From assembly GCA_002707905.1 (NCBI GenBank), contig PAOF01000006.1, positions 5,144 to 15,147 on the forward strand: a stretch of DNA of 10,004 nucleotides, in the 5' to 3' direction. The DNA is from Fidelibacterota bacterium. Lineage in GTDB: Bacteria > Fidelibacterota > Marinisomatia > Marinisomatales > S15-B10. The position numbers and the translations under genes were made by a program. The notes under the pieces were generated by a model. The model did no database searches and was not told the origin of the DNA. It saw only the letters and a program-made list of their open reading frames with translations. Shown here one piece after another: positions 1,711-10,004 of this stretch. Positions within the stretch are counted from its first letter, which is position 1. Every line of letters starts with the position of its first letter.

Positions 1711-2820
1711 ATGTCATTCGTTAATTTTTTAAATCAAAAACCTGCAATATTAATTCTTGAAGATGGTAGACATTTTGATGGCTTCTCATTGGGTAAAGAA
1801 GGTGAAACTTCAGGGGAGGTTTGTTTCAATACAGGAATGTCAGGTTATCAAGAAATAATCACTGACCCATCATATAGCGGACAAATTGTTGCTATGACTT
1901 ATCCTCACATTGGTAATTATGGAACAAATCAACATGATGTTGAATCATCAAAAATTCAAGTTTCTGGTTTTATCATTAAAGAAGAAACTTTGATACCTTC
2001 AAACTTCAGATCCAATGAATCATTAAGAAATTATTTAAAAGAAGTTGGTATTGTGGGTATTCAAGGCATAGACACTAGAGCTTTAACAATTCATTTGAGA
2101 AATAATGGTATGATGAATGGTATTATAAGCACCATTGATTTTGATAAAACATCACTAATGAAAAAATTAAATAAAGTTCCTCAAATGAGTGGATTAGATT
2201 TAGTAAAAAATGTTTCAACCAATAAAAAATATTTTTATGAGTCAAAACAAAATTCAAAAAATAATAAAATTGTTGCTATTGATTTTGGAATAAAAACTAA
2301 TATACTAAGATTGCTAAATCATTTTGAATGTGAAATTGAAGTAGTTCCTGCAAATACTGATGCTGAAGAAATTTTAAATTTAAATCCAGATGGAATTTTT
2401 TTATCAAATGGTCCAGGAGACCCGTCAGCTGTTAGTTATGGTATAAGTACAATAAAAAAATTGATAGGTAAAAAACCAATCTTTGGAATTTGTTTAGGTC
2501 ACCAATTATTAGCACTAGCACTTGGGGCTAAAACATATAAATTAAAGTTTGGTCATCATGGTATAAATCACCCAGTAAAAAACTTAAATAAAAATACTAT
2601 TGAAATTACTAGTCAAAATCATGGTTTTGCAGTTGATCCAGATTCATTACCCAATGATACTGAAATAACTCATATAAATTTAAATGATAATACCCTTGAA
2701 GGTTTTAAATCAGATTCTAACAGAGCTTTCTGTGTGCAATATCATCCTGAGTCAGGTCCAGGTCCCCATGATAGTAGGTATCTATTTAAAAAATTTAAAA
2801 ATCTAATGAAAAATGCCTAA
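1711..2820 (+). CDS. carA: Carbamoyl-phosphate synthase, glutamine-hydrolysing small subunit
   Basis: This subunit releases ammonia from glutamine and channels it to CarB for carbamoyl phosphate synthesis, feeding arginine and pyrimidines. At 369 residues it has near-usual length. The N-terminal CPSase domain shows LILEDG (14-19), [19 protein letters not shown] (39-57) and [11 protein letters not shown] (116-126). The class I glutamine amidotransferase domain follows, with SNGPGDPS (232-239), the nucleophile Cys261 in GICLGHQ, and His345/Glu347 in VQYHPE, so the catalytic triad is complete. The ATG at 1711 is the first possible start, since an in-frame TAA lies at 1702-1704. It has no Shine-Dalgarno; a terminator-like hairpin and an A/T stretch precede it. 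Its last 8 nt overlap carB, typical of co-translated subunits. Confidence 0.97.
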
Positions 2821-5800
2821 AAGAAAAGATTTAGATTCAATATTAATCATTGGTGCAGGCCCAATAATAATTGGTCAAGCCTGTGAGTTTGATTATTCTG
2901 GAACCCAAGCATGTAAAGCTTTAAAAGAAGAAGGGTATAGAATAATTTTAGTTAACTCGAATCCTGCTACTATAATGACAGATCCCGAAATGGCTGATGC
3001 AACCTATATAGAGCCATTAACGCTAGATTCATTAACAGCAATTATAGAAAAAGAAAAGCCAAATGCTATTTTACCAACAGTTGGTGGCCAAACTGCATTA
3101 AACCTTGCAGTTGAACTAAAAGAAGCGAATGTTTTAAAAAAAAATAAAGTGGAATTAATTGGCGCCAACATAAAAGCTATTCAAAAAGCAGAAGATAGAG
3201 AAAAATTTAAGGAAGCAATGGAATCAATAAATATTGATATTGCTAATGGGGGATTTGCAAAAACATTAAATGAATCAAAAAATATAATTAAAAAAATGGG
3301 TTTTCCAATAATTATCAGACCTTCTTTTACTTTAGGTGGCACTGGTGGATCAATTGCGTATAATTATGAAGAATTTCTAAAATTGGCTAAAAAAGGTATA
3401 GAATCAAGTCCAATTTCTGAAATATTAATTGAGGAATCCTTATTAGGTTGGAAGGAATTTGAGCTAGAGGTTATAAGGGATAAAAATGATAACGTGATAA
3501 TTATTTGTTCAATAGAAAATGTGGATCCTATGGGTGTACATACAGGAGATTCGATAACAGTTGCTCCTGCACAAACTTTGACAGATCAAGAATATCAGCT
3601 AATGAGAGATTCTGCAATAAAATGTATAAGAGAAATAGGTGTTGATACAGGAGGTTCTAATGTCCAATTTGCCGTAAATCCAAATAACGGAAGAATGGTT
3701 ATAATTGAAATGAATCCAAGAGTATCCAGATCATCAGCTTTAGCATCAAAAGCAACAGGTTTCCCAATCGCTAAAGTAGCAGCTAAACTCGCAGTTGGAT
3801 ATACCCTTGATGAATTAGATAACGATATAACTGGTAAAACATTAGCAGCTTTTGAACCAACAATTGATTATGTTGTTACAAAAATTCCAAGATGGGATTT
3901 TGAAAAATTTCCTTCTGCTTCAGGACAGTTAGGTGTCCAAATGCAATCAGTTGGGGAAGTAATGTCTTTTGGAAGAAACTTTAGAGAATCTCTTCAAAAA
4001 GCTTTTAGATCTTTGGAAATTGGGCTTCATGGTTTAGAGCCTAAGGAAGGACATAGGCCATTAAACATGTCAAACTTAACCTATGCAACAACTTTTAGGT
4101 TACTTAAAATTAGACAAGCTTTTGTTGAAGGAAAAAGTATTGAAGATATTTACGAATTAACAAAAATTGACAAATGGTTCTTAAGAAATATTCAACAAAT
4201 TGTTTTTGATAGTCAACTTGTTGATATAGACTTAAAAAAAATAAAGTATCTTAAACAAGAGGGTTTTTCTGATTTCCAATTAGCTAAAATAACTAATAAA
4301 AATGAAAAAGAAATTCGTTCAATTAGAAAAGAAAACCAAATTATACCTACCTACAAAGTAGTTGATACTTGTGCTGCTGAGTTTGAAGCTAAAACTCCTT
4401 ATTGTTATTCTACATATGAGCAAGAAAATGAAATCAAACCTCTTAAAGGTAAAAAAATTGTTATTTTGGGAGGTGGTCCTAATAGAATTGGTCAAGGTAT
4501 TGAATTTGATTATTGTTGTGTTCAAGCAGTTTTTGCAGCAAAGGCACTTGGTTGGAAAGCAATAATGATTAACTGTAATCCTGAAACCGTTTCAACTGAT
4601 TTTGACATAACAGATCGGCTTTATTTTGAACCTGTAACTTTTGAAGATGTTATGAATATTATTGATTTAGAAAAACCTGATGGAGTTTTAGTGCAATTTG
4701 GGGGACAAACCCCACTAAATATTGCAAGAAAATTATTAGATGCTGGTGCCCCAATAGTAGGTACTTCTCCAAATGCTATAGATTTAGCTGAAAACAGAGA
4801 AAAATTTGGTGCAATATTAGATAAATTAAATATTCCAAAACCTGAATATGGAATAGCTTTTTCTACTGATGAAGCTAAAATAGTTACCCAAAGAATTGGA
4901 TATCCTGTTCTTGTAAGACCTTCTTATGTTCTTGGTGGTAGAGCAATGGAAATTGTTTATGATGATAGACATCTAATTAATTATGTTCAAAGAGCAGCAG
5001 ATATTTCGCCAGAACATCCAATTTTAATTGATGCTTTTTTAGAAGATGCATTTGAATTTGATGTTGATGCGATATGTGATGGAAATGATGTTTACATTGC
5101 TGGAGTAATGCAACATATTGAAGAGGCTGGAATTCATAGTGGTGATTCATCATGTGTTTTACCACCTTATTGGTTGAGTGAAGATTGTTTAGAAAAAATA
5201 GAAAACTATACAAGACAACTATCGATTGAAGTTGGAGTAAAAGGATTAGTAAATATTCAATTTGCTGAAAAAAATGGAATAGTTTATGTTATTGAAGTTA
5301 ATCCCAGAGCTAGTCGTACGGTTCCATTTGTAAGTAAAGCTACTAATGTTCCATTAGCTCAAATTGCAACAGGGATAGCATTAGGAAAGAAGTTGAAGGA
5401 TTATAAATTAAAAAAATGGTCAACTAATAATCATATAGCTGTAAAAAAACCAGTTTTTCCTTTTAATAAATTTCCTAATGAAAATATTTTTTTAGGTCCA
5501 GAAATGAAATCAACTGGTGAGGTAATGGGGATTGCTCCTGAATTTGGTGACGCTTTTTCAAAAGCAATTATGGGTGATGGAAATCAGCTTCCAAAGAAAG
5601 GAAAAGCTTTTATTTCAGTTAATGACTTTGATAAACCTAAATTGATTTCAATTGCAAAGGATTTATTAAATGTAGGTTTTAATATTTCAGCTACTAAGGG
5701 AACAGCTGAATTTTTGACGAAGGAAAATTTAAAAGTAGATACAATCTATAAAGTAGGTGAAGGTAGGCCTAATGCATTAGATGGAATTAAGAACAAAGAA

Positions 5801-5989
5801 ATAACTTTGGTTATAAATACACCACTTGGAGCACAATCTAGATTTGATGAGAATTCAATTGGAATTGCAGCTACTCAGGCTCGAATTCCCGTGTTAACAA
5901 CATTATCAGCTGCTCAAGCTTTAATAAAGGCTATAAAATCAAATAATAAAAATCAAGTTAGATCTATTCAAGAAATTCATAATTTTTAG
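2813..5989 (+). CDS. carB: Carbamoyl-phosphate synthase large subunit
   Basis: This is the synthetase subunit, which makes carbamoyl phosphate from bicarbonate, ammonia and two ATP. The 1058 residues are full length. The N-terminal half carries [19 protein letters not shown] and the first ATP-grasp domain, with [12 protein letters not shown] and [18 protein letters not shown] (Glu299, Asn301, Arg303, the same numbers as in E. coli). The second half repeats the design with [32 protein letters not shown] and [17 protein letters not shown] (Glu828, Asn830). A C-terminal MGS-like allosteric domain begins near residue 930, with [11 protein letters not shown] and LVINTP, so nucleotide/ornithine control appears preserved. 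The start overlaps carA by 8 nt (ATGCCTAA). The 187-nt leader before argG follows. Confidence 0.97.
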
Positions 5990-6043
5990 CTTTTATTTAA
6001 GTTCTTTGTTTTGATTATTAAATAATTTATTTTAAAGGCTATT

Positions 6044-6097
6044 ATGGGAATCATATTAAATCAATTAAAGCGAAAAAAAAATTCTAAAAAAAAGTAA
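6044..6097 (+). CDS. Candidate leader peptide of the argG attenuator
   Basis: A 17-codon ORF, MGIILNQLKRKKNSKKK, lies between carB and argG. An AAAGG ribosome binding site at 6034-6038 sits 5 nt before its ATG. It contains one arginine codon (CGA, 6071-6073) and six lysine codons. Its last codons and stop overlap the proposed antiterminator strand at 6091-6103. A ribosome stalled at CGA would leave that strand free, while one that reaches the stop would cover it. The geometry matches translation-coupled attenuation. Against this, lysine codons are expected by chance in A-rich DNA and there is only one arginine codon. I see the ORF, its ribosome binding site and the pairing directly; the regulatory role is inferred. 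Confidence 0.45.
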   Translation: MGIILNQLKRKKNSKKK

Positions 6098-6137
6098 TTA
6101 GGGATATATATTTAATTTTAAAACCCCCAATTACTTT
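6091..6137 (+). promoter_or_regulatory. Proposed antiterminator of the argG leader
   Basis: AAAGTAATT at 6091-6099 is perfectly complementary over 9 bp to AATTACTTT at 6129-6137. Beyond one unpaired A, GGG at 6101-6103 can pair with the C-run at 6124-6128. This alternative helix uses the 5' arm and loop of the terminator at 6120-6151, so the two structures exclude each other. The upstream strand includes the stop codon of the leader ORF. Confidence 0.5.
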
Positions 6138-6151
6138 GGGGGTTTTTTTTT
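6120..6151 (+). terminator. Intrinsic terminator/attenuator upstream of argG
   Basis: AAAACCCCCAA (6120-6130) pairs with TTGGGGGTTTT (6136-6146) to give an 11-bp stem with a TTACT loop, followed by a T-run to 6151. It is a strong rho-independent terminator on the plus strand. It lies 130 nt after the carB stop and 25 nt before the argG GTG. It could simply end the carAB transcript, but the competing upstream pairing and its place in front of argG favour attenuation. Confidence 0.75.
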
Positions 6152-6176
6152 AAAGATCTAGGGAGATATAAAAGTT

Positions 6177-7403
6177 GTGAAAAAAATTGTTCTAGCATAT
6201 AGTGGTGGATTAGACACATCTGTAATTTTAAAGTGGTTGTCAAATTCAGGATTTGAGGTCTTTTGTTTCATTGGGAATGTTGGACAGAAAGAAAATTTTC
6301 AAGAAATTGAAAAAAAAGCCCTTAAAACTGGAGCAGCAAATGTATTAACATATGATTTAAGAAAAGAATTTGTTACAGATTTTATTTTTCCAGCATTAAA
6401 AGGTAATGCATTATATGAAGGCAGGTATTTATTAGGAACCTCTTTGGCAAGACCTATTCTTGCTAAAGCACAAATAGAAATGGCCAAAGATTTGAATGCC
6501 AAATATGTTGGTCACGGTTCAACTGGTAAAGGGAATGATCAGGTGAGATTTGAATTAGCTTATTATGCACTTAATCCTGAAATAGAAGTAATTGCACCTT
6601 GGAAAGATTCTACTTTTCTAAATCAATTTAAAGGAAGAAATGATTTAATTGCATATGCAAAAAAATATGATATCCCAATTGGCGTTTCAAAAAAAAGACC
6701 ATATAGTGAAGATGAAAATTTAATGCATATAAGTCATGAAGCAGGAATGTTAGAAGATCCAAATTATAGGCCTGAAGAATCAGTTTTCACTCACACATCA
6801 TCATTAAAAGATACACCTGAAGATGAAGAAATAATCGTTATTTCTTTTAAAGATGGAATACCTATTTCTGTGTTTAATGAATCAAAAAAAGTTAAAATTA
6901 CTGACCCTTTAGAATTATTTGTTTATCTTAATGATATCGGAAGTAAACATGGAATTGGTAGGTTGGATATGGTTGAAAATCGATTTATTGGCATAAAATC
7001 CAGAGGAATTTATGAAACTCCTGCGGGTAAAATTTTATGGACAGCTCATAGAGATATTGAGGGTTTAGCAATGGATAAAGAGGTTATGCATTTGAGAGAC
7101 TCTTTAATTCCTAAATTTAGTGAATTGATTTATAATGGACTTTGGTATTCCCCTGAAATGGACTTTATCATGAGTGCTTTTAATAAGAGCCAAGAAGAAA
7201 TTGATGGTGATGTTACATTATCTCTTTTTAAAGGTAATGTTACTACAATTGGAAGAAAGTCGCCAACTTCTTTATATGATCAAGATTTTTCCAGCATGGA
7301 TAAAGAAGGTGGATTTGATGCTATTGATGCAAAAGGTTTTATCAATATTCACTCAATTAGATTGAAAGCTCATAATCTTCTAATTAATAAGAAAAAAAAA
7401 TGA
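6177..7403 (+). CDS. argG: Argininosuccinate synthase
   Basis: ArgG joins citrulline and aspartate with ATP to give argininosuccinate, the penultimate step of arginine synthesis. The 408 residues cover the whole family. The N-terminal PP-loop AYSGGLDTS (7-15) binds [16 protein letters not shown] (81-93) and [14 protein letters not shown] (113-126) are the conserved substrate-binding segments, and the C-terminal synthetase/multimerisation part follows. The start is GTG at 6177, because the conserved [10 protein letters not shown] begins there; GGGAG at 6161-6165 is a rather distant ribosome binding site (11 nt). An attenuator-like terminator ends 25 nt upstream. The stop codon overlaps an ATG (ATGA at 7400-7403) that opens a 16-codon ORF leading into argH, so argG and argH are almost certainly co-transcribed. 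Confidence 0.97.
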
Positions 7404-7442
7404 CAAAAAATTTACAATCATTTGAATGGAGAAATGATACTT

Positions 7443-8618
7443 ATGGGTAAAATTTGGGATAAAGGATTTGAAGTAGATAAAAGAGTTGAAGAATTTACTG
7501 TGGGTAATGATTTTCTGATTGATATGAAGTTAATTAATTATGATTGTAAAGCTTCTATAATTCATGCGAAAATGTTAAGAAAAATAGGAGTTTTATCAAA
7601 AACTGAATTAAAAAAGATAATTAATGCATTAAATGAAATAATTAATTCAAATGATTTAACTATCAAAATCAATGATGAGGATTGTCATACTGCCATAGAA
7701 AATTATTTAATTAAGAAAATTGGAGATGCTGGAAAAAAGATACATACCGCAAGATCAAGGAATGACCAAGTTTTAACTGCCTTAAGATTATATTATTTAG
7801 ATAATATTAAAAATTGTGATTTATTACAAAAGGAATGGATTAAATCTTTAAAAAATTTTAAAAATAAATTTGGAACAATTAATTTTCCAGGCTACACCCA
7901 TTTTAGAAAAGCAATGCCTTCATCAATTAATATGTGGTCAGAAGCATTTATTGAATCATCCATTGATAATACTAAATTATTGAAAGTGTCTAAAAATATA
8001 ATAAATAAATCTCCATTAGGAACAGCTGCAGGGTATGGTGTTCCAATGAATATTGATAGAGAATTTACAGCAAAAGAAATGGGGTTTGATTCCAATCAGA
8101 ACCCAATTTATGCTCAAATAAGTAGGGGCAAGTTTGAGAAACTATTGATTCATTCATTAGTTCAAATAATGTATGATATAAATAAAATATCTTCAGATTT
8201 AATTTTATTTTCAATGGACGAATTAGGTTATTTTGAAATTCCAGAAAAATTTTGCACCGGAAGTTCTATTATGCCTCAAAAAAACAACCCTGATGTTTTA
8301 GAATTACTAAGAGCGAAATATAACAATGTCAGATCATATGAATCAGAAGTTTTAAATATTACAAGTAATTTGCCATCTGGTTTTCATAGAGATTTTCAAT
8401 TAACAAAAGAACCTACAATGAAAGCTATAGAAACAACTTTAGATTGCATAAAAATGATTACCATGTTAATTAATGAGCTAGTTGTTAATGAAAAAAGATG
8501 CGATGAGGCTCTCTCTGAGGAAATATATGCTACTGAAAAGGCATATAAATTAGTAGAAAAAGGAGTTCCTTTTCGTTCTGCTTATAAAATTATTGCAAAG
8601 GAATTAAGTAAAAAATAA
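7443..8618 (+). CDS. argH: Argininosuccinate lyase (short C-terminus)
   Basis: ArgH cleaves argininosuccinate to arginine and fumarate. I chose the ATG at 7443 (391 residues) because MGKIWDKGFEVDKRVEEF lines up with the usual family start. ATG 7434 and TTG 7422 are in-frame alternatives. Visible motifs are HTARSRNDQV (101-110), FPGYTHFRKAMP with the conserved His153, and the fumarase/lyase signature GSSIMPQKNNP (273-283) carrying the catalytic serine loop. The N-terminal style is Bacteroidota/FCB-like. The protein stops soon after VPFRSAYKIIAKEL, where most homologues continue for several tens of residues, so the C-terminus is short. The active-site regions are intact, so I expect a working enzyme. 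It follows argG by 39 nt. Confidence 0.93.
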   Translation: MGKIWDKGFEVDKRVEEFTVGNDFLIDMKLINYDCKASIIHAKMLRKIGVLSKTELKKIINALNEIINSNDLTIKINDEDCHTAIENYLIKKIGDAGKKIHTARSRNDQVLTALRLYYLDNIKNCDLLQKEWIKSLKNFKNKFGTINFPGYTHFRKAMPSSINMWSEAFIESSIDNTKLLKVSKNIINKSPLGTAAGYGVPMNIDREFTAKEMGFDSNQNPIYAQISRGKFEKLLIHSLVQIMYDINKISSDLILFSMDELGYFEIPEKFCTGSSIMPQKNNPDVLELLRAKYNNVRSYESEVLNITSNLPSGFHRDFQLTKEPTMKAIETTLDCIKMITMLINELVVNEKRCDEALSEEIYATEKAYKLVEKGVPFRSAYKIIAKELSKK

Positions 8619-8669
8619 TGAGTAAATATATCTCTTGCTTAAACATATGTAATAATTATAAATTTTATA

Positions 8670-8738
8670 ATGATAAATTTTCGTTTAATAGAAAAACAAA
8701 TACCGTCATTCCCTTATTTTTGGGGGGAAGTTGTGTAA
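8670..8738 (+). CDS. Possible short leader ORF before lysW
   Basis: This is a 22-codon ORF starting MINFRLIEKQ and ending FWGEVV. It has no clear ribosome binding site. It spans the G-run at 8722-8727 that could act as antiterminator, and its stop at 8736-8738 is placed so that a terminating ribosome would cover that run. It has only one arginine codon. A 43-codon ORF in another frame (8618-8749, ATG overlapping the argH stop) competes with it. Either or both may be chance. Confidence 0.2.
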   Translation: MINFRLIEKQIPSFPYFWGEVV

Positions 8739-8773
8739 GTAAATATTAAGCAGCTTTTATATTAACCCCCGAA
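8719..8773 (+). promoter_or_regulatory. Proposed antiterminator of the lysW leader
   Basis: TTTGGGGG at 8719-8726 can pair with CCCCCGAA at 8766-8773 over 8 bp, including one G-U pair and leaving a 39-nt loop. This takes up exactly the 5' arm of the terminator at 8764-8797. Runs of five or six G or C are rare in this AT-rich DNA, so two G-runs competing for one C-run is suggestive. The mechanism is inferred. Confidence 0.4.
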
Positions 8774-8797
8774 TAAAATTGTTTGGGGGTTTTTTTT
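8764..8797 (+). terminator. Intrinsic terminator/attenuator upstream of lysW
   Basis: AACCCCCGAA (8764-8773) pairs with TTTGGGGGTT (8782-8791), 10 bp with one G-U pair and an 8-nt loop, followed by a T-run to 8797. It would end the argGH transcript or attenuate transcription into lysW. The T-run ends 25 nt before the lysW start, the same distance as in the argG leader, and the C5/G5 stem core is also the same. Confidence 0.75.
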
Positions 8798-8822: not shown

Positions 8823-8993
8823 ATGTCTCAAGGTACATGTGAAGAATGTGGATCAGAAATTGAACTTGAAAGTGGAACTGTTGAAAATGAAATCATAGAT
8901 TGTGATGATTGTGGAGCAGAGCTAGAAGTTATTTCATTAGATCCTGTAAAGTTAGATCCTGCGCCAGAAGAACAAGAGGATTGGGGTGAATAG
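8823..8993 (+). CDS. lysW: LysW amino-group carrier protein
   Basis: LysW is a small acidic carrier whose C-terminal Glu side chain is joined to the amino group of 2-aminoadipate (lysine route) or glutamate (arginine/ornithine route). This shields the amino group and presents the intermediate to later enzymes. The 56-residue product has the hallmarks of the family: a four-cysteine zinc site (CEEC, Cys6/Cys9; CDDC, Cys27/Cys30), the segment [20 protein letters not shown] close to Thermus LysW, and the C-terminal signature EDWGE ending in Glu56. It is easily missed because of its length. A strong AAGGAG precedes the ATG. The ligase gene begins 33 nt downstream. The position next to argGH suggests a role in arginine synthesis, though lysine synthesis is not excluded. 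Confidence 0.95.
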
Positions 8994-9026: not shown

Positions 9027-9857
9027 GTGAATATAGGAATTTTATTTTCAAAAATACGTGTTGAAGAGAAACTTCTAATTGAGGAGATGAAGAAAAGAAG
9101 AAATGTTACATTAAAATTAATTGATAGTAGAAAATTAATAATTAATCCTGAAGACAATTTAGGAATAGATGTTCTTCTTGATAGAGAAATTGCTTCATCT
9201 AAAGCACTACATGTTGTAGAAATGTTAAAAAACTCAACAGTAAGATGTATAAATAGTTACGATGTAATTAGAATTTGTGGTGATAAAGTTTTTACATCGA
9301 GATGGTTAAGTAAAAAAGGGGTTCCAACGCCAAGAATAAAAGTAGCTTTCACAAAAGAAAGTGCTCTAGAGGCAATTGAGGAAATGGGATATCCAGTTGT
9401 TCTTAAGCCTGTTGATGGTTCTTGGGGTAGATTGATTGCAAAAATTGAAAATAAAAATTCTGCTCTCGCTATTTTGGAACACAAATCATATCTAAGTTCA
9501 TTTTATCATTCCATTTTTTATTTACAAGAATATATTAATAAACCAGATAGAGATATTAGAGTATTAATGATTGATGATGAACCAATTTGTGCATCTTATA
9601 GAAAATCTTCTGATTGGTTAACGAATGTATCAAAAGGTGCAACTACTGAAGAATGTATTATTACTCCGGAATTAGAAAAGATTTCAATCATGGCTTCCAG
9701 AGCGGTTGGAGGAGGTGCTTTGGCAATTGATATTATGGAAACATCAGATGGTTTTACTGTTAATGAAATTAATTGTTCAATGGAATTTAAAGGTAGTATG
9801 CATGCTGTAAAAACAAATATTCCAGCTATAATAGTAGATTATTGTTTAAAAAATTAA
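9027..9857 (+). CDS. lysX: LysX/ArgX-family LysW-amino acid ligase
   Basis: This ATP-grasp enzyme ligates 2-aminoadipate or glutamate to the C-terminal Glu of LysW. The 276 residues match the family length. The N-terminal segment IGILFSKIRVEEKLL (3-17) is typical. The ATP-grasp core includes GDKVFTSRWLSKKGVPTPR (85-103), VVLKPVDGSWGR (124-135; Lys127 contacts ATP) and ALAIDIM (231-237). The metal and substrate end is VNEINCSMEFKGSMH (245-259; Glu247, Asn249). The segment NCSMEFKG resembles the NHTMEFKN-like segment I recall from Thermus LysX. This region helps set glutamate versus aminoadipate specificity, but I cannot decide the substrate from it. The GTG start at 9027 is the first one after an in-frame TGA (9006-9008). 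RimK-type glutamate ligases are related, but the adjacent lysW settles the assignment. A second copy starts 10 nt downstream. Confidence 0.92.
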   Translation: MNIGILFSKIRVEEKLLIEEMKKRRNVTLKLIDSRKLIINPEDNLGIDVLLDREIASSKALHVVEMLKNSTVRCINSYDVIRICGDKVFTSRWLSKKGVPTPRIKVAFTKESALEAIEEMGYPVVLKPVDGSWGRLIAKIENKNSALAILEHKSYLSSFYHSIFYLQEYINKPDRDIRVLMIDDEPICASYRKSSDWLTNVSKGATTEECIITPELEKISIMASRAVGGGALAIDIMETSDGFTVNEINCSMEFKGSMHAVKTNIPAIIVDYCLKN

Positions 9858-9867
9858 TTTAAGAATT

Positions 9868-10004
9868 ATGAGTATAAAAATAGGATTGCTATTATCAAGA
9901 GTTCGCCAAGAAGAGAAATTACTTCTCAAAGAAGCTGAAAATCGAAATTTAAACATCATAAAAATTGATAGTAGATATTTAAAATTAGGCTTAAATGATA
10001 AATA
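9868..10004 (+). CDS. Second LysX/ArgX-family ligase, 5' part only
   Basis: Forty-five codons are visible before the window ends. KIGLLLSRVRQEEKLLLKE (4-22) and IKIDSRYL are clearly paralogous to the preceding ligase (NIGILFSKIRVEEKLLIEE and LKLIDSRKL), with about half of the aligned residues identical. The ATP-grasp core lies outside the window. The gene starts 10 nt after the first ligase and is surely co-transcribed with it. Two neighbouring ligases with one LysW suggest one for glutamate (ArgX) and one for 2-aminoadipate (LysX), as known in Sulfolobus, where both share a LysW. Which is which cannot be told here. Confidence 0.85.
   Translation, partial: MSIKIGLLLSRVRQEEKLLLKEAENRNLNIIKIDSRYLKLGLNDK

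Follow-up and report, generated by a model that had tools for sequence, protein, structure and literature searches.

A probable ribosome-mediated attenuator between carB and argG in Candidatus Neomarinimicrobiota and its arginine-rich counterparts in two phyla

The carB–argG gap and its operon

The window, the whole 10,004-nucleotide stretch of DNA analyzed here, comes from an uncultured marine bacterium of Candidatus Neomarinimicrobiota, represented by an assembly (G000) of 1.0 Mb in 42 contigs that is ~64% complete. In a homologue search, its argG shared 92% identity with the gene of Candidatus Neomarinimicrobiota isolate MED647. The genes run in the order carA, carB, gap, argG, argH, gap, lysW, and two LysX-type ligases, and are followed 3′ of the LysX pair by argC/lysY, a LysW-aminoadipate kinase, an ArgD/LysJ-type aminotransferase, a LysW-lysine hydrolase, and his genes. 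A short terminator-like hairpin with T's (1679–1692) lies immediately 5′ of carA. The reading frame at 8823..8993 is presumed to be lysW. The genes of the window are:

1711..2820, + strand: carA, an open reading frame (ORF) similar to the same-genus locus L032; 5′ of the proposed attenuator
2813..5989, + strand: carB, an ORF conserved in L032; 5′ of the proposed attenuator
6177..7403, + strand: argG, an ORF supported by homologue searches; first gene 3′ of the proposed attenuator
7422..8618, + strand: argH, an ORF that adjoins argG in relatives
8823..8993, + strand: presumed lysW, an ORF for a 56-aa carrier protein, 94% identical in L032
9027..9857, + strand: first LysX-type ligase, a divergent paralogue and putative ArgX (TIGR02144, 296.1 bits; cut-off 275.6)
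9868..10004, + strand: second LysX-type ligase, truncated at the window end; complete gene in L176 (TIGR02144, 337.3 bits)

The gap between carB and argG holds a compact set of elements, each of which overlaps or closely precedes the next:

6034..6038, + strand: weak Shine-Dalgarno-like AAAGG, read directly; 5′ of the leader ORF
6044..6097, + strand: leader ORF MGIILNQLKRKKNSKKK, from a predicted start at ATG 6044 to TAA 6095–6097; 17 sense codons plus stop
6068..6079, + strand: decoding codons AAG CGA AAA AAA (Lys-Arg-Lys-Lys, codons 9–12), 24–15 nt 5′ of the antiterminator strand
6091..6103, + strand: antiterminator strand AAAGTAATTAGGG, overlapping the leader stop codon
6125..6137, + strand: antiterminator partner (terminator 5′ arm and loop); hairpin fold −9.4 kcal/mol
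6120..6151, + strand: intrinsic terminator AAAACCCCCAA-TTACT-TTGGGGGTTTT; 11-bp stem 6120–6146, T-tract 6143–6151

The leader ORF, its CGA codon, the antiterminator strand, and the terminator are read directly from the DNA where the initial annotation had placed them. Its proposed pairing of 9 contiguous bp plus 3 bp between 6091–6103 and the terminator 5′ arm and loop (6125–6137) is likewise confirmed, with one mismatch between the two blocks. The ORF runs in the same direction as the transcript and ends inside the antiterminator strand, as it does in relatives. The ribosome binding site claimed in front of it fared less well: a weak AAAGG is present, but no counterpart is seen at the corresponding position of the same-genus relative, several of whose bases in the alignment are unresolved. 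The CGA at 6071–6073 encodes the single arginine of the leader peptide, and is a rare codon, accounting for 2 of the 85 Arg codons in five genes of the window.

From this arrangement we infer translation of the ORF, a stall, read-through, and the amino acid sensed in this genome. RNA polymerase moving past carB would transcribe the short ORF, whose codons 9–12 specify Lys-Arg-Lys-Lys. With ample charged Arg (and Lys) tRNA, the ribosome would reach the stop codon and cover 6091–6103, upon which the terminator would form and argG and the following genes would be off, with carAB still made. When a basic amino acid is scarce, the ribosome would stall on codons 9–12 and leave 6091–6103 free to pair with 6125–6137, disrupting the terminator. 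A stalled ribosome should free a strand that starts ~12–15 nt past its A-site codon; in the window, the distances from the Lys, Arg, Lys, and Lys codons to the antiterminator strand are 24, 21, 18, and 15 nt. The earlier proposal of a stall at CGA is tempered by decoding codons that are mostly Lys. A stall site appears to be retained, mostly in lysine form, and a codon cluster for the regulated amino acid, a hallmark of attenuators, is there only if lysine is counted. The initial annotation had also proposed comparing the free energies of the two folds. Both exist, and when folded separately the antiterminator hairpin (−9.4 kcal/mol) is weaker than the terminator (−16.1 kcal/mol); it would therefore have to win by forming first. 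Very probably, the device switches the argG genes on at arginine shortage, and here perhaps at lysine shortage too.

Shuffled sequences set the scale for these features. None of 300 dinucleotide shuffles of the 187-base gap yielded a terminator of ≤ −12 kcal/mol, and 17 of 1000 contained an ATG ORF that was 12–40 codons long with at least seven Lys/Arg; the Lys/Arg-rich ORF is moderately beyond chance in the gap, bearing in mind that Lys-rich ORFs arise readily because the window DNA is AT-rich. A laxer scan of the whole window returned 3 terminator-like sites versus 3.1 in shuffles; a stem followed by T's is therefore no rarity in itself. The exclusive antiterminator/terminator pairing exists, but taken alone in the window it lies within chance (89 of 200 shuffles pair equally well), and the minimum free energy fold of the complete 143-base leader is no better than that of shuffles (z −0.04). 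These numbers bear on a simpler reading of the gap, in which a plain intrinsic terminator separates carAB from argG, argG is expressed from an unseen promoter behind it or by constant partial read-through, and the ORF is a product of chance in AT-rich DNA. The strong terminator and weak antiterminator, the window pairing within chance, and the equally many terminator-like sites in shuffles all fit it; a consensus scan of the window for an argG promoter gave 53 sites versus 59.7 in shuffles, no excess. This reading nonetheless appears quite unlikely given what stands before argG in other genomes, described below, and given the preservation of the ORF frame in the same-genus relative.

Arginine-rich leaders before argG and the distribution of ArgR

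The genus of the window is sampled by two genomes, 64% and 76% complete, and the leader of the relative has unresolved bases. The two leader ORFs align without insertions or deletions, and, those bases aside, codons 3–12, the antiterminator strand, and the terminator are identical. The four codon differences that can be resolved are non-synonymous, and the antiterminator pairing of the relative is no better than in shuffles (44 of 200). Beyond the genus, carB was found directly 5′ of argG in further genomes of the phylum, nine in all, and the leader is present in all nine, its ORF ending just before the terminator. The leader peptides are Arg-rich in the seven that lie outside the genus, as in MLSLRRNNRQNRRRSNFLEGHR, MLNNRRNNRQDRRRSNSLVGHR, and MKIITRNHAIERRRSIIFGGT, and the ORF end can pair with the terminator 5′ arm in each of these relatives, albeit not always better than in shuffles. 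A candidate for the compensatory change that the initial annotation had suggested looking for is L015, where both strands have changed together to GGGGGG/CCCCCC from the usual GGAGGG/CCCTCC. In L014, the pairing is shifted. Both cases were judged by eye in an eight-row alignment (A3) that has two rows out of register. In L048, L015, L029, L030, and L148, the leader start codon lies inside CCGTTATG, with no clear Shine-Dalgarno site by eye.

The leader is also found ahead of argG genes that do not adjoin carB, and an account that binds it to the carB gap was rejected as too narrow. In the window's own family it precedes argG in G006 (MIGFSNRSGLVRRASENARREDVGVAI) and G008 (MVERRRQVRRSRTPRQNWRFRGIL), and it is found in other families of the phylum and in Thermotogota (e.g., ...NIRRRTRCRWVMNGA). 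The KSB1 genome L046 has an apparent argG leader whose antiterminator pairing is not significant. The survey covered 147 non-redundant argG upstream regions, 44 of them with a terminator-like hairpin among the final 300 bases, and a stricter set of 31 with a terminator of ≤ −12 kcal/mol within 125 nt. By the same thresholds, 22 of the 64 argG upstream regions of the phylum have a strong terminator, and every one of the 22 carries an ORF with at least four Lys/Arg ending 10–75 nt before it; outside the window's genus, Arg exceeds Lys in 20 of 20 such ORFs. A search for terminators kept without the ORF or the strand, the outcome named beforehand as contrary to attenuation, thus gave the opposite, which supports the attenuator interpretation and argues against a plain terminator.

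The threshold of at least four Lys/Arg is lenient, being passed by 28 of the 31 regions versus 10.2 (about a third) in shuffles. A far sharper contrast comes from RRR or two RR in the leader ORF, found in 21 of the 31 non-redundant regions across phyla versus 0.53 in shuffles, which again speaks against the plain terminator. The notion that any terminator hairpin might be accompanied by a lucky ORF was ruled out by these shuffle controls. When leader ORFs were picked regardless of residue, they were found in 27 of the 31 regions, and Arg was the most enriched residue: 131 versus 64.3 expected (z 10.1), with a maximum of 82 in 500 shuffles and only 37 and 39 when that DNA was read in its two remaining frames. 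The excess is nearly the same without the window's genus (128 vs. 62.7), and outside that genus Lys is not enriched. Asn is the second most enriched residue (73 vs. 34.2, z 7.9), for which there is no explanation.

The antiterminator pairing is within chance in the window alone; across the 31 argG regions, no more than 5% of shuffles pair as well in 15, where ~1.6 would be expected. This count includes L240, which together with L222, L230, and L242, all of the class of the KSB1 genome, is a doubtful leader or a non-leader kept in the counts; for L085 and L189 of Thermotogota, the pairing test used an upstream hairpin rather than the terminator adjoining argG. At least two Arg codons lie 12–27 nt before the antiterminator strand in 12 of the 25 leader rows outside the window's genus, four of them with Arg codons at 24 and 21 nt (L013, at 27 and 24, is not among the four), and fewer than two do so in the other 13. 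In Thermotogota, the Arg cluster is closer to the strand, the called start of which is soft. Nine Thermotogota without ArgR (L184, L185, L189–L192, L194, L197, and L208) have argG leaders that share a conserved GGCCATATC...GATATGGCC terminator; in the seven of the nine for which pairing was tested on this terminator, the antiterminator partner extends upstream beyond its 5′ arm.

Across these leaders the paired bases vary, and the recurring element is a basic peptide encoded immediately ahead of the terminator. This argues against a metabolite-binding riboswitch or T-box in place of a leader peptide, which is highly improbable even though an intrinsic terminator in the leader is also an output of such systems. 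Riboswitches, including the lysine riboswitch, and T-boxes were rejected as candidates: no Rfam family reached the gathering cut-off in the window or in 13 loci of relatives.

Textbook control of arginine synthesis in bacteria is by ArgR. The ArgR family (PF01316) was not found in G000 or in the same-genus relative (64% and 76% complete); of the 245 genomes of the phylum, 23 have it above cut-off. In 22 of these 23, the ArgR gene lies immediately 5′ of argG, where the leader stands elsewhere; these loci include L119, L121, L123, and L126–L140, genomes of f23, f27, and f29 among them. Apart from one region that was too short, the phylum offers 64 argG regions with sufficient upstream sequence: 22 with the leader only, 22 with ArgR only, 20 with neither, and none with both (Fisher p 1.2e-5). 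In Thermotogota, ArgR is above cut-off in 8 of 103 genomes, and 29 regions, from 33 genomes with argG, comprise 9 with the leader, 8 with ArgR, 12 with neither, and none with both (p 0.03). Both p-values are too small because shared ancestry is ignored, though the same pattern appears in two phyla. Since some regions have neither leader nor ArgR, other arrangements exist.

The anatomy of the gap, the recurrence of Arg-rich leaders in relatives, and the finding of no leader and ArgR together in the regions examined are the data that carry the interpretation. On these grounds, the carB–argG gap is taken to be a ribosome-mediated transcription attenuator within the operon, with a probability of about 0.83. 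The finding is real, and larger than the initial annotation supposed.

Lysine codons, the second leader, and the LysX pair

With Lys-Arg-Lys-Lys at the decoding position, the leader may respond to Arg alone, to Lys alone, or to both. The LysW cluster and two LysX paralogues downstream indicate that the operon probably serves lysine too. This modifies the proposal that arginine genes are gated apart from carAB: argG does lie behind the terminator, but the genes that follow it include this probable lysine cluster. A working attenuator that senses arginine only, its lysines having drifted from arginine in an AT-rich genome, is possible at somewhat less than even odds. It would account for argG leaders elsewhere being Arg-rich without Lys enrichment, for the rare CGA in the decoding site, and for the codon usage of five window genes, where Lys already makes up 9%. 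It sits uneasily with Lys at three of the four decoding codons in both genus genomes, and with the downstream LysW cluster and its two LysX paralogues. The decoding site combined with this cluster makes dual Lys/Arg sensing plausible, and it is preferred here over arginine sensing with drift, at about even odds.

A second candidate attenuator, at 8618–8791, lies before lysW, and its predicted elements are:

8618..8749, + strand: second leader ORF of 43 codons, before lysW, overlapping the argH stop; alternative ORF 8670–8738
8718..8735, + strand: antiterminator strand, pairing with 8749–8774 (duplex −19.8 kcal/mol; 6 of 200 shuffles as good); identical in the same-genus relative
8764..8791, + strand: intrinsic terminator, −16.7 kcal/mol

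Arg-Lys, or Lys-Lys in the relative, lies 28 and 25 nt before its antiterminator strand. This antiterminator strand carries GGGGGG, and the leader has a possible TTCCC/GGGAA pre-hairpin. Its presence raises the prospect that the first leader is decaying in the genus, an ancestral arginine sensor that has lost most Arg codons and most of its antiterminator strength as control moved to the lysW leader. The one remaining Arg and the weak antiterminator pairing in both genomes would agree with such decay, as would the second leader's antiterminator, which is stronger than its terminator (−19.8 vs. −16.7) and identical in its core in the same-genus relative G001. The identity of codons 3–12, strand, and terminator of the first leader in the two genomes, unresolved bases in one aside, is hard to square with it, and decay is judged rather unlikely.

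The lysW leaders of other genomes have a character of their own. A terminator is present in 10 of 11 non-redundant lysW upstream regions, the leader ORFs are Lys-enriched (52 vs. 32.2, z 5.8), RRR or two RR occurs in 0 of 10, and in 6 of 10 regions no more than 5% of shuffles equal the antiterminator pairing. Outside the genus, eight of nine non-redundant lysW regions have Lys-rich or mixed Lys/Arg leaders (L148–L151, L153, and L155–L157). Tsubouchi et al. reportedly described, in 2005, leader-peptide attenuation of the LysW-type lysine cluster of Thermus, which differs from the window in taxon and gene order. Among precedents for the lysW leaders, the Thermus attenuator comes closest, and it may reduce their novelty.

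The composition of these leaders appears related to the number of LysX genes. Genomes with a single strong LysX match have lysW leaders such as KKAKK (G088) and KKAKKAKK (G152), and those with a LysX pair have mixed ones, such as RRAKR (G002) and RRAK (G030); G076 (single strong LysX, Lys plus Arg leader) and G185 (single, KAKAR) fit the pattern less well. In the LysX tree, the window's first paralogue falls in a starred clade with the first pair members of G002 and G030, and the second paralogues and single LysX proteins are placed weakly. The first paralogue may be ArgX, an assignment weakened by the single LysX proteins of G088 and G152, which lie not with the second paralogues but, weakly (73/73), on the side of the first. 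In an alignment that includes the two paralogues of the window's operon (9027–9857 and L176:12–851), the first members of the pairs have C[SA]MEFK[GE]S and the remaining rows [TK][VIM]EFRNS, which may mark an ArgX/LysX difference. A homocitrate-synthase-like match in G000 scores 403.9 bits, just under the family cut-off of 413.55, which is passed in 2 of 10 genomes; weaker matches of this kind are unspecific, because all 14 control genomes give them.

Relation to known attenuators and implications

The carB–argG leader shares with leader attenuators of the trp/his type a short ORF whose codons specify the product amino acid, an antiterminator strand at the ORF end, and a terminator before a biosynthetic gene. 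It differs from them in its arginine and lysine signals, in its two exclusive helices as opposed to the three-helix trp scheme, and in its position inside an operon, between carB and argG. The kind of mechanism is known; the setting was not found described. In line with the statement of the initial annotation that no argG attenuator of this kind was known in LysW-using bacteria, neither an argG attenuator nor an arginine-codon leader before an arginine biosynthesis gene was identified in a search of full texts that took in few subscription papers. The main text of a premature-terminator survey contains neither arginine nor argG, and arginine is absent from the consulted passages of a leader-gene survey.

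Several systems come close in one respect or another, as far as the consulted passages of each paper describe them. In Salmonella orf34-speF, two consecutive Arg codons stall the ribosome at low arginine, and their replacement by Lys abolishes arginine control; the regulated gene is an ornithine decarboxylase, acted on via Rho, the ribosome-binding site, and RNase G, with no intrinsic terminator and no arginine synthesis (PMC6386406). In Pseudomonas, the carbamoyl-phosphate synthase gene carA has a leader peptide and may be attenuated, but the leader lies before carA, and attenuation is tied to pyrimidines and arginine to transcription control (PMC4997734). Sinorhizobium SEP5 has been proposed as a leader peptide; its six Thr and three Lys codons represent two amino acids, and it precedes a shared-pathway gene. 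It differs in responding to threonine and lysine, in preceding an aspartate dehydrogenase gene, and in its restriction to one genus, and those passages mention no terminator or antiterminator (PMC10117765). The cysS uORF motif uORFC-8-2 has tandem cognate codons and proposed ribosome-mediated attenuation, but concerns cysteine and a tRNA synthetase gene of Rhodobacterales; the carA motif of the same study is a structured RNA before carA, but a beta-proteobacterial hairpin (PMC8632094). In 2010, the authors of a Firmicutes case wrote that, to their knowledge, leader peptides had until then been shown only in Proteobacteria and Actinobacteria (PMC2965389).

At its broadest, the pattern may reflect a wide, retunable class of basic-amino-acid attenuators that replaces ArgR in at least Neomarinimicrobiota and Thermotogota, a proposal as apt to prove wrong as right. 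Its leader codons would track the operon product, with Arg codons ahead of argG, Lys codons ahead of a lysW accompanied by one LysX, and a mixture ahead of a LysX/ArgX pair. G076, G185, and the tree position of the single LysX proteins of G088 and G152 count against it. The window's genus would have two such attenuators in series in a carAB-argGH-lysW-lysX-argX operon, the first retuned from arginine to joint arginine and lysine. The class is testable in cultured Thermotogota.

In two distant phyla, a peptide-coded RNA switch appears to replace ArgR. Such a switch would account for the ability of uncultured marine bacteria to keep making carbamoyl phosphate for pyrimidines with the arginine branch off. 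A leader that reads two amino acids of one shared pathway would, if true, be a sensor that tracks enzyme evolution.
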